Made by a program: the position numbers and the translations under genes
Notes under the pieces: model-generated
Seen by the model: the letters and a program-made list of their open reading frames with translations, nothing else
Databases searched by the model: none
What the model was told of the DNA's origin: nothing
From: Candidatus Chloroploca sp. Khr17
Lineage (GTDB): Bacteria; Chloroflexota; Chloroflexia; Chloroflexales; Chloroflexaceae
Reading direction: 5' to 3'
Length of the DNA stretch: 35,439 nt
Assembly (NCBI RefSeq): GCF_004138165.1
Contig: NZ_RYFF01000051.1
Coordinates: forward strand, 1 to 35,439
Shown: in pieces, positions 22,711 through 31,869 of the stretch
Position numbering within the stretch: position 1 is the first letter of the stretch
Layout: the number at the start of each line of letters is the position of its first letter

Positions 22711-22728
22711 GCGAGCTCTCGCTTTCCG

Positions 22729-22790
22729 CAGGATATCCAAGACTGGGGGGTTGGGGCACAAGCCCCAACCCCCCAGTCTTGGATATCCTG
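22729..22790 (+). terminator. Perfect 29-bp hairpin terminator
   Basis: Arms 22729-22757 and 22762-22790 are exactly complementary around an ACAA loop and are followed by TTT. It ends the secreted-protein transcript before the ParA gene. Its length and perfection exceed an ordinary terminator, so it may be a repeat palindrome in that role. Confidence 0.75.
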
Positions 22791-22860
22791 TTTCTACCTG
22801 TTACCAAAAATGGTACAATCGGGGCAAGACGCGAGAAACATTGAACAAGAGGAAGCTCCC

Positions 22861-23622
22861 ATGGGTCATGTGCTCGCATTGGCGATGCAAAAGGGTGGGG
22901 TTGGCAAGACGACGACGACCTTGAGCCTCGGCTTTGTTTTGGCTGAACGTGGACGACGGGTGTTGCTGATTGATCTTGACCCGCAGTCAAATTTGACGCA
23001 GGGGCTTGGGGTTGATCCGTCAGCGCTCGATTATAGTGTCTACGAGGTGTTGCTGAACCCTGAGCGTGGTACGGCGTTCGCAACCATCACGACATCGTCT
23101 GGGGTGGATCTCATCCCTTCGTCGCTCGATCTGGCCGGGGCCGAGCTTGAATTGGCCGGCAAGGTCGGGCGTGAGTTGCTGCTGCGCAAGGCGCTGCGGG
23201 AAACTCGGACGAAGTATGATTATATTCTGCTTGATCCACCGCCAAGCCTGGGCCTTTTTTCCCTCAATGCGCTGGCTGCCGCTGATGCGGTGCTGGTGCC
23301 GATGCAAATGCATGCCTATGCGCTCAAGGCGATGCCGCAGTTGGAACAGACGATTGAACTGGTGCGCGAGATTCAGCCGTCGCTCGTGATTGGTGGCATT
23401 GTCTGTACGCTGGCTGATCGCCGGACGAATTTGAGTCTTCAGGTTGAACAGCAGGTGCGTGAACAGTATGGCGATCTGGTCTTTACGACGGTGATTCCGA
23501 TCAATGTGAAGCTTGCCGAAGCACCAACGGTTGGTATCCCCATTGGAAGTTATGCCCCTCATAGTGCCGGGGCCCTTGCGTATGCGGCCCTTGCAGATGA
23601 GTTGGAGGCTCGCTATGGCTGA
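22861..23622 (+). CDS. ParA/Soj-family ATPase (orphan)
   Basis: 253 residues from ATG 22861 (GAGGAA 8 nt upstream). The deviant Walker A KGGVGKTTTT is at 11-20 with signature Lys11 and Lys16, LLIDLDPQ at 35-42, and DYILLDPPPSLG as Walker B. This is a nucleoid-binding ATPase that positions DNA or protein cargo. No ParB and no visible parS sites accompany it. Instead it overlaps by 8 bp an alpha/beta hydrolase with a basic repeated N-terminal peptide. A TACAAT at 22814-22819 may be the -10. It could be chromosomal Soj separated from ParB or a cargo-positioning homologue. Confidence 0.9.
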   Translation: MGHVLALAMQKGGVGKTTTTLSLGFVLAERGRRVLLIDLDPQSNLTQGLGVDPSALDYSVYEVLLNPERGTAFATITTSSGVDLIPSSLDLAGAELELAGKVGRELLLRKALRETRTKYDYILLDPPPSLGLFSLNALAAADAVLVPMQMHAYALKAMPQLEQTIELVREIQPSLVIGGIVCTLADRRTNLSLQVEQQVREQYGDLVFTTVIPINVKLAEAPTVGIPIGSYAPHSAGALAYAALADELEARYG

Positions 23623-24688
23623 TGATCCGTCCATCATTCGGCGTGGTAAGGGTCTGCGCCTGTCAACTGAGTCCCCTGAACCCGCTACTGACGCTGCTCG
23701 CCCTGAGGCCGCGCCAGCGGTTCAACCCGCGACCGAAGCTGCGCCACAGATTCGCCGCGGAACCGGGTTTCGTCTCTCGACCCAGGCTGCGCTGGAGCCA
23801 GAAGAGGTTGATGAGGTCATGCGTGAACGCGATGCGCTGGCCCGGTCTGGGGCGGTGCGCTGGCGGATTCAAACGTCGCGGGGGTCGCTGAGTTATCTGC
23901 ATGCCGGCAGTGGCCCCCCCCTGTTACTCATTCACGGTTGGGGTGCCTCGGCGCGTCTTTGGGCTGGCACGCTGGCTGATCTCGGTCAGCAGCGCAGTGG
24001 CTATGCCCTGGATCTGCCAGGTTTCGGTCAGTCGCCCGCCCGCCCCGCCCCGCCGACGCTCAAGACGCTGGCCGAAGATGTGATCGCTTTTGCTGATACG
24101 GTCGGCCTCACGACGTTTGAATTGGCAGGCCATTCGCTCGGGGCGGCGGTGGCGGCCTGTGTCGCCGGTAGGTACCCAGAACGGGTCAGCCGTCTTGCGT
24201 TGGTAGCGCTTGGGGTGCGCACGTTTGCCCCCGAGTTGACGACGCTCGATTGGTCACGTTCACCGGTTGATCTCTCGCTTGGCCTTGCCCGGCCTTTCTT
24301 TGAATGGTGGGAGCCGGTGAATCGGCTGTTGATGCAGAGTCCACCCCTGGCGCTGACGCTCAGTGCGTTGCTGTTGCATCATGAACCGGCTGATCCTGAG
24401 TTATGGCGCGAATATCTGGCCGATCATGCAGCGGTTGATGCGCGGGCGTATGTGACTGCCCTGACGGCGGTGGCGGCACCGCAGTTGCGTGAGGCCTTGC
24501 AGCATATCATCGCGCCGACGCTCTTTGTGGCGGGGCGTGAAGATCGGGTGGTGAGCCTGGCCGAAGTGACGTCGGCGCACCAACTGATTGCGCATAGCAG
24601 CCTGACGGTGCTGGATCAGTGTGGTCACCTACCGATGATCGAACGCCCCGCGCAACTTGACCAGGTACTGCGCGGGTTTTTCCGGTGA
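23615..24688 (+). CDS. Alpha/beta hydrolase with duplicated basic N-terminal motif, coupled to ParA
   Basis: 357 residues, starting inside the ParA stop region. The hydrolase domain (about 85-355) has a full triad, S174 in GHSLGA, D310 (GREDR) and H338 (QCGHLP), with oxyanion motif HGWGAS (107-112). Residues 1-80 are a Pro/Ala/Glu-rich, probably disordered extension with two copies of a basic motif, IRRGKGLRLST (8-18) and IRRGTGFRLST (46-56). Short basic N-terminal peptides activate ParA ATPases in ParB and similar cargo adaptors, so this extension may be the ParA contact. The substrate is unknown. Confidence 0.85.
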   Translation: MADDPSIIRRGKGLRLSTESPEPATDAARPEAAPAVQPATEAAPQIRRGTGFRLSTQAALEPEEVDEVMRERDALARSGAVRWRIQTSRGSLSYLHAGSGPPLLLIHGWGASARLWAGTLADLGQQRSGYALDLPGFGQSPARPAPPTLKTLAEDVIAFADTVGLTTFELAGHSLGAAVAACVAGRYPERVSRLALVALGVRTFAPELTTLDWSRSPVDLSLGLARPFFEWWEPVNRLLMQSPPLALTLSALLLHHEPADPELWREYLADHAAVDARAYVTALTAVAAPQLREALQHIIAPTLFVAGREDRVVSLAEVTSAHQLIAHSSLTVLDQCGHLPMIERPAQLDQVLRGFFR

Positions 24689-24998: not shown

Positions 24999-25039
24999 TA
25001 GCGACAGAACGTGTGTTTTACCTGAATGCGGAGGCCCAT

Positions 25040-25645
25040 ATGACCGCACAACCAAAGCATTATGTGACGAGCGCTGAGTATTTAGCATTCGAGCGCACCG
25101 ATGACAAAAAACATGAGTACCTCGCAGGAACGATATATGCGATGGCCGGTGGAAGTGCACGCCATAATCGTATTGCAGGGAGTACCTATGCAACACTTTA
25201 TGCGCAACTACGCCAGCGTCAGTGTACCGTATATCCGAGTGATATGCGGGTAAAAGTGCTTCAGACCGAACTATACACGTATCCTGATATTACCATTGTT
25301 TGCGGTAATGAACAATACGAAGACAAGAAAGAAGACACCCTCCTTAATCCGACAATTATTATCGAGGTATTGTCGCCGTCAACTGAAAAATATGATCGCG
25401 GAAAGAAATTTCAGCATTACCGCACGATCCTTTCACTGCGCGAATATATCTTAATCGCTCAGGACACCTATCATATCGAGCGATTCGCACGACAAAGCGA
25501 TAATACATGGGTCTTATCGGAGGCATCCAGCCGAGAAGACAGCATTGATATCACAACTATTCAGTGTGTTCTCCGTCTTGAAGAAGTGTATGAGAAAGCA
25601 CTGTTTTCATCAACAACAGAAGAAGAGGAAAGTGAAACAGAGTAG
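25040..25645 (+). CDS. Uma2 family (DUF820) PD-(D/E)XK nuclease-like protein
   Basis: 201 residues from ATG 25040 with GGAGG 5 nt upstream. It has the Uma2 pattern: an early E-Y-L-x-G (E26), PD at 82-83, IIIEVLSPSTEKYDRGKK around 106-123 with E109, and a following Tyr-rich helix. Its function in bacteria is unclear; such genes are often multi-copy and mobile. Base composition is clearly more AT-rich than the flanking hydrolase and LGFP genes, suggesting separate origin. The C-terminus is an acidic tail (TTEEEESETE). It stands next to MntA/HepT debris in a small accessory patch. Confidence 0.85.
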   Translation: MTAQPKHYVTSAEYLAFERTDDKKHEYLAGTIYAMAGGSARHNRIAGSTYATLYAQLRQRQCTVYPSDMRVKVLQTELYTYPDITIVCGNEQYEDKKEDTLLNPTIIIEVLSPSTEKYDRGKKFQHYRTILSLREYILIAQDTYHIERFARQSDNTWVLSEASSREDSIDITTIQCVLRLEEVYEKALFSSTTEEEESETE

Positions 25646-30951: not shown

Positions 30952-31869
30952 ATGGCAGCAACGGATCATCCGCTCAAACGGGTTGTGGCGCTGGCGGGGT
31001 TGGATTTGGCCGCGTGGGTATTGGGGCAGGCGGTGCAGGCAGTGGAGTCGGGTCAGGGTGCGTTGCTGGCGGAACCAGAGATTCTGGATACGGATCTGGT
31101 GCTCCGGGTGACGCTGGCGACGGGGGAGGAGGTCATCCTGCACGTGGAGTTTCAGGGGCCGGGCAGCAAGCGCCCGATGCCATTGCGCGTGCTGGAGTAT
31201 CAGGCGCGACTGGTGGATACCTATCGTGGGAAGCTGCTCCAGAGTGCGGTGTTCTATCTGGGCGGCGCGGGAACCAGTGACTCTGGTGAACACGCGGTGT
31301 ATACTGGAAATGGCACCATCGCCGTGGGGTGGAACTATGTGGTGATCCACCTGTGGCAACTGCTGGCCGAGGACTTACTGGCGTTGGATCGCCCGGCGCT
31401 GTTGGTGTTGATTGGGCAGACGCAGATCGGGCAGCCAGTCGCGACGTTGACGGCGGCGGTGGCGCGGTTGGCGCAGCACGCAAAAGGGGTTGAGCGGGAG
31501 CGGTTGCTGACTGAATTGCTGATCTTATGCACCGACAAGGAGATTGCCGCAATGGCCGAACAGATCATTGAGCGTGATTATGGCTTGCCCGAGACGCCGA
31601 TGATGCGCAAATGGCGCGAGCAGGGGCTTGCGCAGGGGCTTGCGCAGGGGCGGGAAGAGGGGCGGGAAGAGGGGCGGGAAGAGGGGCGGGAAGAGGGTCA
31701 GTTGGCCGTACTGGTGCGCCTGTTGCAGCGGCGCTGTGGCCCGCTGCCCGCTGCGCTGCTCGTGCAGGTGCAGCACCTTGACCCAGCGCAACGGCTGGAT
31801 CTGGCCGAGGCGGTCTTTGATTTCACCAGCGTGGCCGATCTCGAAGCGTGGTTGGGGCAGGTCGGCTAG
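30952..31869 (+). CDS. Rpn-like PD-(D/E)XK nuclease/transposase-family protein with DUF4351 tail
   Basis: 305 residues. The N-terminal part shows the nuclease pattern: D48 in ILDTDLVLRV, then E66-F-Q68 in ILHVEFQG. Such proteins are related to recombination-promoting nucleases. The C-terminal 50 residues (LVRLLQRRCGPLP...DLEAWL) match DUF4351. In between is a hinge of GLAQGLAQG followed by four REEG repeats from a 12-bp microsatellite (about 31647-31700). No clear ribosome site precedes the ATG. It is convergent with the damaged restriction gene, whose stop lies 32 bp away. Confidence 0.82.
   Translation: MAATDHPLKRVVALAGLDLAAWVLGQAVQAVESGQGALLAEPEILDTDLVLRVTLATGEEVILHVEFQGPGSKRPMPLRVLEYQARLVDTYRGKLLQSAVFYLGGAGTSDSGEHAVYTGNGTIAVGWNYVVIHLWQLLAEDLLALDRPALLVLIGQTQIGQPVATLTAAVARLAQHAKGVERERLLTELLILCTDKEIAAMAEQIIERDYGLPETPMMRKWREQGLAQGLAQGREEGREEGREEGREEGQLAVLVRLLQRRCGPLPAALLVQVQHLDPAQRLDLAEAVFDFTSVADLEAWLGQVG
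31647..31700 (+). repeat. 12-bp coding microsatellite
   Basis: The unit CGGGAAGAGGGG is repeated four times in frame, encoding REEG. It follows two copies of a GGGCTTGCGCAG unit encoding GLAQ. Changes in copy number would leave the frame intact. Confidence 0.85.

Follow-up and report, generated by a model that had tools for sequence, protein, structure and literature searches.

A gene for a ParA-type ATPase and the adjoining gene for an α/β-hydrolase-fold protein, both on the + strand of a 35,439-nucleotide stretch of DNA from Candidatus Chloroploca sp. Khr17 (referred to as the window), form what we consider a likely case of a self-contained ParA positioning module. In this module, the hydrolase-fold protein would serve as the cargo adaptor, and two short peptides in its head would replace the two tails of a dimeric partner. 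The cargo is probably not DNA. The source genome (6.4 Mb) belongs to Chloroflexales, a bacterial order in which most members are photosynthetic. Comparison of related sequences indicates that the pair and its peptide motif are conserved, that the motif recurs on a probable ribbon-helix-helix (RHH) partner accompanied by iterons, that the catalytic serine is lost from about half of the ParA-linked hydrolases, and that most of the ParA pocket for such peptides is kept.

Conservation of the ParA-hydrolase gene pair

The ParA gene (253 residues; 22861–23622, +; Pfam AAA_31, 1.8e-52) and the partner gene (357 residues; 23615–24688, +; Pfam Abhydrolase_1, 1.3e-28) overlap by 8 bp on the same strand (23615–23622), as a first-pass annotation made from the DNA letters had pointed out. 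According to the translation and the AlphaFold2 (AF2) model, the partner consists of a disordered head followed by an α/β-hydrolase domain. A GGAGG at 23604–23608 locates 6 nt 5′ of the hydrolase ATG, and the overlap probably couples the translation of the two genes. The first-pass annotation also called the ParA an orphan. No ParB gene adjoins it, so the name holds for the locus; for the genome it does not: contig C51 has a separate, canonical ParA/ParB locus, and contig C161 has another ParA from the clade of the window ParA, with a different partner.

Conservation of the pair and of the motif had been proposed as a check on the link between the two proteins, and neither result speaks against it. 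We searched 82 Chloroflexales genomes with both the ParA and the hydrolase protein, and 27 of them carry the hydrolase-linked ParA. In 25 genomes the pair is complete, and in two it is cut by contig ends (G001, with the hydrolase domain on another contig, and G062, in which the head alone is seen). With hydrolase start codons chosen by a script favouring an ATG near the ParA stop, the genes of the 25 complete pairs overlap by 8–17 bp in 18 cases and are 1–7 bp apart in seven. In one of these seven (L024), an upstream in-frame ATG would give an overlap too. The set of 25 leaves out L011, whose hydrolase is cut by the contig end, and L034–L037, which are ParA-free paralogues; the cut heads L103 and L104 are counted apart.

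Across 14 longer loci, the pair alone is common to all, and any other neighbour occurs in three loci at most, apart from frames antisense to the pair. The two genes thus move as a unit from one genomic context to another, and this speaks for a functional link between ParA and hydrolase. By the same count, the idea of a neighbouring gene as the cargo was rejected. Homologous pairs are found on single-contig replicons of 4.7 Mb (G006) and 5.8 Mb (G064). Plasmid-borne close relatives were also sought; the 26 plasmid records matching at E 1e-40 or better are all below 60% identity.

A repeated basic peptide in a disordered head

In the AF2 model, the first 60 residues of the partner (23615–23794, +) have a predicted local distance difference test score (pLDDT) below 50, a helix follows at residues 62–78, and the block means reach 86–98 from residue 81 on. 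The disordered head described in the first-pass annotation is thus present, but the disorder covers about 60 residues rather than 80. Two copies of an IRRG-x-G-x-RLST motif, also noticed there, are borne out: IRRGKGLRLST at residues 8–18 (23636–23668, +) and IRRGTGFRLST at residues 46–56 (23750–23782, +). Two copies exceed chance, since none of 200,000 shuffles of residues 2–80 contained even one RRGxGxRLST. At the DNA level, we searched the 6.4 Mb genome with a degenerate RRGxGxRLS pattern in which Arg is written CGN and Ser TCN. It has two matches, both inside this head, and its reversed control has none.

The motif is also present in relatives. By a relaxed pattern, all 25 complete heads contain exactly two copies, 26–43 residues apart, with variable linkers rich in Pro, Ala or acidic residues, and the two contig-cut heads (L103 and L104) have two copies each as well. 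In nearly all heads copy 1 reads I/L-R-R-G-[RKQ]-G-L-R-L/I-S-[TV], with R9, R10 and G11 invariant (25/25). Averaged over columns, the commonest residue reaches a frequency of 0.87 and 0.79 in the two motifs, compared with 0.50–0.55 for the remainder of the head and 0.61 for the hydrolase domain. None of the 35 ParA-free hydrolase paralogues contains the motif by pattern. The heads of two loci of genus g11 show an apparent third, degenerate copy (RRRKTRPATA in L014, RRRKMRLSTSP in L016).

We then extended the DNA pattern to 400 genomes of the phylum. It matches at this ParA locus in 17 genomes and elsewhere in 24, and the reversed control matches in 24 (counted by eye). We take the off-locus matches as chance: the 13 of the 24 that were read, together with a second site in G024, lie in short open reading frames or in mid-frame positions. 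In the searches made, apparently genuine copies are seen only beside this ParA clade.

The same peptide on a different partner domain

A ParA with 72% or more identity to that of the window occurs in 29 genomes, and each of them encodes a motif-bearing partner for it, 27 of hydrolase type and two of RHH type. In the latter two loci (L101 and L102), which come from genomes of different families, a ParA 74% identical to that of the window stands beside an RHH-like protein with one motif copy. One of the two proteins matches Pfam Antitox_RHH at E 0.0015, which does not pass the cut-off. The AF2 model shows two helices and no strand, and the best Foldseek match has an E value of 3.1. Eight of the 14 Foldseek entries are chains of CdbA, SvtR, Arc or CopG, which we take to be RHH proteins. 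The assignment is strengthened because period-16 tandem repeats built on TTGTGCGT lie directly upstream of ParA in both loci (L101:1961–2040 and L102:1648–1705). We therefore regard the partner in L101 and L102 as a probable RHH DNA-binding protein, and the TTGTGCGT arrays as probable centromeres for partition of the RHH type. A profile built from both partner proteins reached into the motif region in three of the hydrolase heads (E 7e-4 to 4e-3), at scores equalled by unrelated weak matches. As a separate feature, the RHH-type partner L101:2822–3244 has approximately six eight-residue repeats (TQDRTIAE / TQDRTVAE) in the linker between motif and C-terminal domain.

Because the same motif sits on hydrolase-type and probable RHH partners of closely related ParAs, the RRGxGxRLS peptide looks like a portable ParA coupling, and the hydrolase domain occupies the position that a DNA-binding domain would otherwise have. 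In the simplest reading, the hydrolase domain took over from the cargo domain of a DNA-partition partner, a direction that we infer.

Other partners in the same clade carry related head peptides on two further domain types. One is DUF3102-like, and its peptides occur once or twice, mostly in a QKGxPFxVS form. The other, third type has a ParB-like head with a peptide such as RRGRGLDGML. A match to HTH_ParB at E 0.028, which does not pass the cut-off, was found in another partner of the clade. The second same-clade ParA of the source genome (C161:28301–29050) is 69% identical to that of the window, and its partner (L081:2547–3392) combines a DUF3102-like domain with two head peptides, LQKGAPYTVSS and LQRGAPFTIST. 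Tandem repeats of 41 bp and 97 bp occur downstream in this C161 locus.

The four partner types account for 48 rows of the ParA tree, which group as a single Chloroflexales clade (support 100/100). With the root at midpoint, the type with a ParB-like head splits off before the others, which hold together at 87/91. The hydrolase-type rows require two label changes, and four rows are not resolved. L053 and L105 were too short and were left out of this tree.

The peptide pocket of ParA

The window ParA has a deviant Walker A motif, KGGVGKT, with K11 and K16, and the catalytic residues D38, D40 and N44. These residues are present in 25 of the 26 hydrolase-linked ParAs, and the 26th is cut in this region. 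The best structure match of the window ParA is 8ray, which we took as the Myxococcus xanthus ParA chain on the basis of the D60A change reported in PMC12462528 and the fit to the numbering there. In M. xanthus, the ParB peptide enters a hydrophobic pocket of ParA made of V116, L150, L152, L155, L187 and L192, and Y81, E82, D110 and E117 lie near R13 of ParB (PMC12462528).

The equivalents in the window ParA are L96, L130, L132, L135, L167 and I171 for the hydrophobic positions and Y61, E62, D90 and E97 for the polar ones. Throughout the 26 hydrolase-linked ParAs, Y61, E62 and E97 are invariant and the six hydrophobic positions stay hydrophobic, so that nine of the ten pocket residues are kept in kind. 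The suggestion of the first-pass annotation that the hydrolase could be the adaptor of a ParA system gains good inferential support from two sides: the peptide also occurs on a probable DNA-binding partner with iterons, and the pocket for the ParB peptide is mostly kept.

Comparing the pocket across partner types, we notice that E97 is found in all 26 hydrolase-type, both RHH-type and all seven third-type rows, and is lost in all 13 DUF3102-type rows. This covariation with the peptide type may be a single event, and we do not count it as independent evidence. The global charge of ParA was tried as a marker and rejected, as isoelectric point and net charge fail to separate the partner types. 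K217, the equivalent of R238 in M. xanthus, is K or R in 26 of 26 hydrolase-linked ParAs, and non-specific DNA binding by the window ParA is plausible, although some other basic residues of M. xanthus ParA have no equivalent in it.

Loss of the catalytic serine

The hydrolase domain of the window protein contains a complete triad, with S174 in a GHSLG motif (24134–24136), D310 (24542–24544) and H338 (24626–24628), all on the + strand. The S174 column in the 25 ParA-linked proteins holds Ser 13 times, Gly seven times and Ala five times. In the 35 ParA-free paralogues, it holds Ser 33 times and Ala twice. Loss of the serine thus separates the two groups (12/25 versus 2/35; Fisher p 3e-4, with non-independent sequences). 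On the tree, the loss is most simply explained by three changes, of which well-supported branches demand two, and the Ser-less ParA-linked members keep both peptides. Since 12 of the 25 have lost the catalytic serine, catalysis is not the shared function of the ParA-linked hydrolases as their sequences stand, and the proposal that the system distributes an enzyme finds no support as a common function.

A ParA system that spreads an active enzyme, such as an esterase, lipase or depolymerase, with the hydrolase as a cargo whose activity matters, therefore appears unlikely to us. The intact Ser174-Asp310-His338 triad in the window species and in 12 of the other 24 ParA-linked proteins speaks for such an enzyme, as does a fold near those of a membrane phospholipase A, esterases and a polyhydroxybutyrate (PHB) depolymerase. 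It is opposed by at least two changes at Ser174 on the tree in proteins with both peptides, and by the retention of Ser in nearly all of the ParA-free paralogues. The fold itself gives no clear winner among these neighbours (PhaZ, 8ynv, is among the top matches). Against the intracellular polyhydroxyalkanoate (PHA) depolymerase family NF050089, the window protein scores 95.4 bits, below the cut-off of 300.

Another group of residues follows the link to ParA. A motif in the cap, R215-x-P217-x-D219 (24257–24271, +), distinguishes the ParA-linked set. Its R215, P217 and D219 are present in 23, 24 and 23 of the 25 ParA-linked proteins, and each in less than half of 29 close ParA-free paralogues. 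This motif is a candidate cargo surface.

Search for a centromere

Our tests for iterons cover periods of 7–21 bp. Directly upstream of ParA, both RHH-type loci have arrays and none of 26 hydrolase-type loci does (one of the 27 was skipped). Downstream of the hydrolase, 24 of 25 loci contain no short-period array, and L023 shows a short self-match. We found no DNA-binding domain in the hydrolase protein: the Pfam matches are to α/β-hydrolase-type families alone, and the 50 fold matches shown are hydrolases. With neither a DNA-binding domain nor centromere repeats, the hydrolase partner fails to show two features of a centromere-binding partner.

These observations bear on the possibility that the pair is a DNA partition system after all, with a centromere as the target of the hydrolase protein or of some third protein. 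We consider this very unlikely. In its favour, a probable RHH partner and iterons accompany the closest ParA relatives, and other partners of the clade hint at DNA binding (the DUF3102-like domain, and the HTH_ParB match that does not pass the cut-off). Loci of those other types are also mostly without upstream iterons, which were found in 0 of 13 DUF3102-type and one of six third-type loci. Iterons accordingly seem to mark the RHH type and not DNA cargo in general. On the other side stand the missing arrays and DNA-binding domain, the genome's own ParA/ParB, and the homologous pairs on the 4.7 and 5.8 Mb replicons.

A proposed mechanism and its weighing

On the basis of these comparisons, we propose how the self-contained module might operate. 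ATP-bound ParA dimers would coat the nucleoid. The hydrolase-fold protein would ride on the cargo and display two RRGxGLRLS peptides from its floppy head, and these would fit the ParB-type pocket at the edge of the ParA dimer. Entry of the peptides would set off ATP hydrolysis and release, so that the cargo tracks the ParA gradient along the cell. The hydrolase protein would be monomeric, and its two peptides per chain would do the work of the paired tails of a centromere-binding dimer and fill both sites of the ParA dimer. The module probably arose by exchange of the DNA-binding domain of the partner for an α/β-hydrolase domain, which would be used for cargo binding or ligand sensing and not as an enzyme.

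Work on other systems makes the doubled peptide understandable. In M. xanthus, a ParA dimer has two peptide sites with an avidity effect, and single peptides stimulate more than 10-fold more weakly than closed ParB clamps (PMC12462528). In pSM19035, at least four contiguous repeats are required for the RHH partner to stimulate ParA efficiently (PMC9499535). By analogy, a partner without a dimer or an iteron array could obtain the same effect from a doubled peptide. The copy numbers, one on both RHH-type partners and two on all 25 hydrolase-type partners, fit this idea of a tandem in place of a dimer.

Several observations weigh against this module. The pair is dispensable to the order, since 55 of the 82 genomes lack it, among them four of the eight genomes in genus g4. 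With such Pfam and Foldseek values and no modelled strand, the assignment to RHH is weak, it concerns two loci only, and the rarity of iterons beside the other partner types lessens what their absence can tell. In L023, a period-8 self-match (a run of 11, 300 bases 3′ of the hydrolase stop) lies above all 100 shuffles; it is probably minor. The serine is kept in 13 of 25 hydrolases, that of the window species included, and D310 and H338 are kept in all 25, which would be surprising in a mere scaffold; proteins that retain Asp and His but not Ser may bind a ligand.

Other adverse points concern ParA and the peptide. The pocket is largely kept in canonical ParAs too (eight phylum rows and the genome's own ParB-linked ParA), so it is available but is not a specific test of this peptide. 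The window ParA lacks equivalents of the basic residues R235, K247 and K257 of M. xanthus. D90, which corresponds to D110 in the R13 pocket of M. xanthus, is D in 12, E in six, L in seven and A in one of the 26 ParAs. The peptide residue aligned with R13 of ParB varies as well (R/K/Q/T/H/G), and the likeness to ParB lies in GxGL. Since both positions vary, the binding mode may differ from that of ParB, and the variation at the R13-aligned residue leads us to place the charged contacts, probably, at R9/R10 or R15 of the peptide.

The same variation would also suit a different role for the RRGxGLRLS repeats, such as targeting to membranes, nucleic acids or kinases, with the link to ParA merely operonic. 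Many kinase sites resemble the end of this basic motif, where Thr or Val follows a conserved Ser. The motif lacks the proline of the AT-hook core and the hydrophobic stretch of a twin-arginine translocation (Tat) signal, and in the searches made its genuine copies were confined to partners in this ParA clade, where they occur on two unrelated folds. Moreover, disordered N-terminal basic peptides are a known mode of ParA partners (PMC12204374, PMC12462528, PMC7308502). We regard such a role as highly improbable and favour the cargo-adaptor module.

A weak lead to the cargo

PHB granules offer a weak lead to the cargo. PHA synthase is encoded in 26 of the 27 genomes with the pair, and in 21 (PF07167) or 27 (TIGR01836) of the other 55, an association confounded by phylogeny. 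In family f4, the enzyme is found in eight of nine genomes with the pair and in none of 17 others. In family f1, TIGR01836 does not separate the groups (18/18 versus 23/23) and PF07167 separates them weakly (18/18 versus 17/23). The lone pair genome without PhaC, G062, is 83% complete. Phototrophy was rejected as a correlate, as Photo_RC in family f4 occurs in nine of nine pair genomes (one weakly) and 14 of 17 others. The class III PhaC proteins of Chloroflexales (TIGR01836) fall into two score classes, about 490–540 and about 315–370 bits, and some genomes have both.

A more specific idea is ATP-driven positioning of PHB granules by ParA in Chloroflexales, in which a depolymerase-like α/β hydrolase whose catalysis has become dispensable would be the granule adaptor and the peptide pair would replace a dimeric centromere-binding protein and its iterons. 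We offer it as a speculative possibility, unlikely as it stands. A recent review lists the ATP dependence of PHB granule spacing among the unknowns (PMC13052382), and if the cargo is PHB, the module would bear on whether this spacing needs ATP.

Other features near the pair

A perfect inverted repeat of 29 bp with a 4-nt loop (22729–22790) sits between the upstream gene and ParA. It is terminator-like, and no second copy occurs elsewhere in the genome. No direct repeats were found in 22711–22861 upstream of ParA. Near the pair, the window also contains a Uma2-family putative nuclease (25013–25645) and a DUF4351 protein (30952–31869).

Comparison with known systems

Many ParA/MinD ATPases remain orphans, given how diverse the partners of these ATPases are (PMC10241942). 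Among the listed matches of the open-access literature searched, judged by titles and the beginnings of abstracts and with subscription papers mostly outside the search, we found no description of the ParA-hydrolase pair. The same holds, by titles and the beginnings of abstracts, for the best-ranked matches listed on ParA with PHB/PHA granules. The RRGxGLRLS peptide can be directly searched for and assayed. As about half of the ParA-linked proteins have lost the catalytic serine, the hydrolase is a candidate example of an enzyme fold taken over for the role of cargo adaptor.

The PHB-granule tethers PhaM, PhaF and PhaH would share their task with the module, should PHB prove to be its cargo. 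These differ in that, as described in PMC13052382, they bind DNA directly and show no homology to ParA. McdA/McdB and other ParA/MinD cargo systems share with the proposed module a ParA-type ATPase, a protein partner and a cargo other than DNA, and the N-terminal 20 residues of McdB suffice for the interaction with McdA (PMC12204374). In contrast to McdB, the window partner is an enzyme fold with tandem peptides, and no conserved neighbour names its cargo.

Chromosomal ParABS, as in M. xanthus, has a ParA of the same family with mostly the same pocket, and its partner carries an N-terminal G-x-G-L peptide. The source genome's own ParB starts with MSRRRGLGSGLDALM, which contains such a peptide. 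Unlike ParB, the window partner has neither a CTP-clamp nor a helix-turn-helix domain, no centromere repeats were found at its locus, and the R13 position is not conserved.

The RHH-type ParABS systems (ParA/omega of pSM19035, ParF/ParG of TP228) resemble the window in pairing ParA with a small partner. The unstructured N-terminal tail of ParG activates ParF (PMC7308502). Partition proteins of the RHH class are dimeric, and the one from pSM19035 binds an uninterrupted series of 7-bp repeats (PMC9499535). The upstream tandem repeats of L101 and L102 resemble these heptad arrays. The window differs from the RHH-type systems in having an α/β-hydrolase for the DNA-binding domain, two peptides instead of one and no iterons. 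Together with the RHH-type loci, it presents a near-controlled natural swap, in which closely related ParAs meet the same candidate trigger peptide on two unrelated cargo domains, a probably DNA-binding one with iterons and a hydrolase-fold one lacking them, and the trigger appears separable from the cargo part. The peptide, present twice per chain here and once on the probable RHH partner, also suggests a route by which a ParA partner could dispense with dimerisation.

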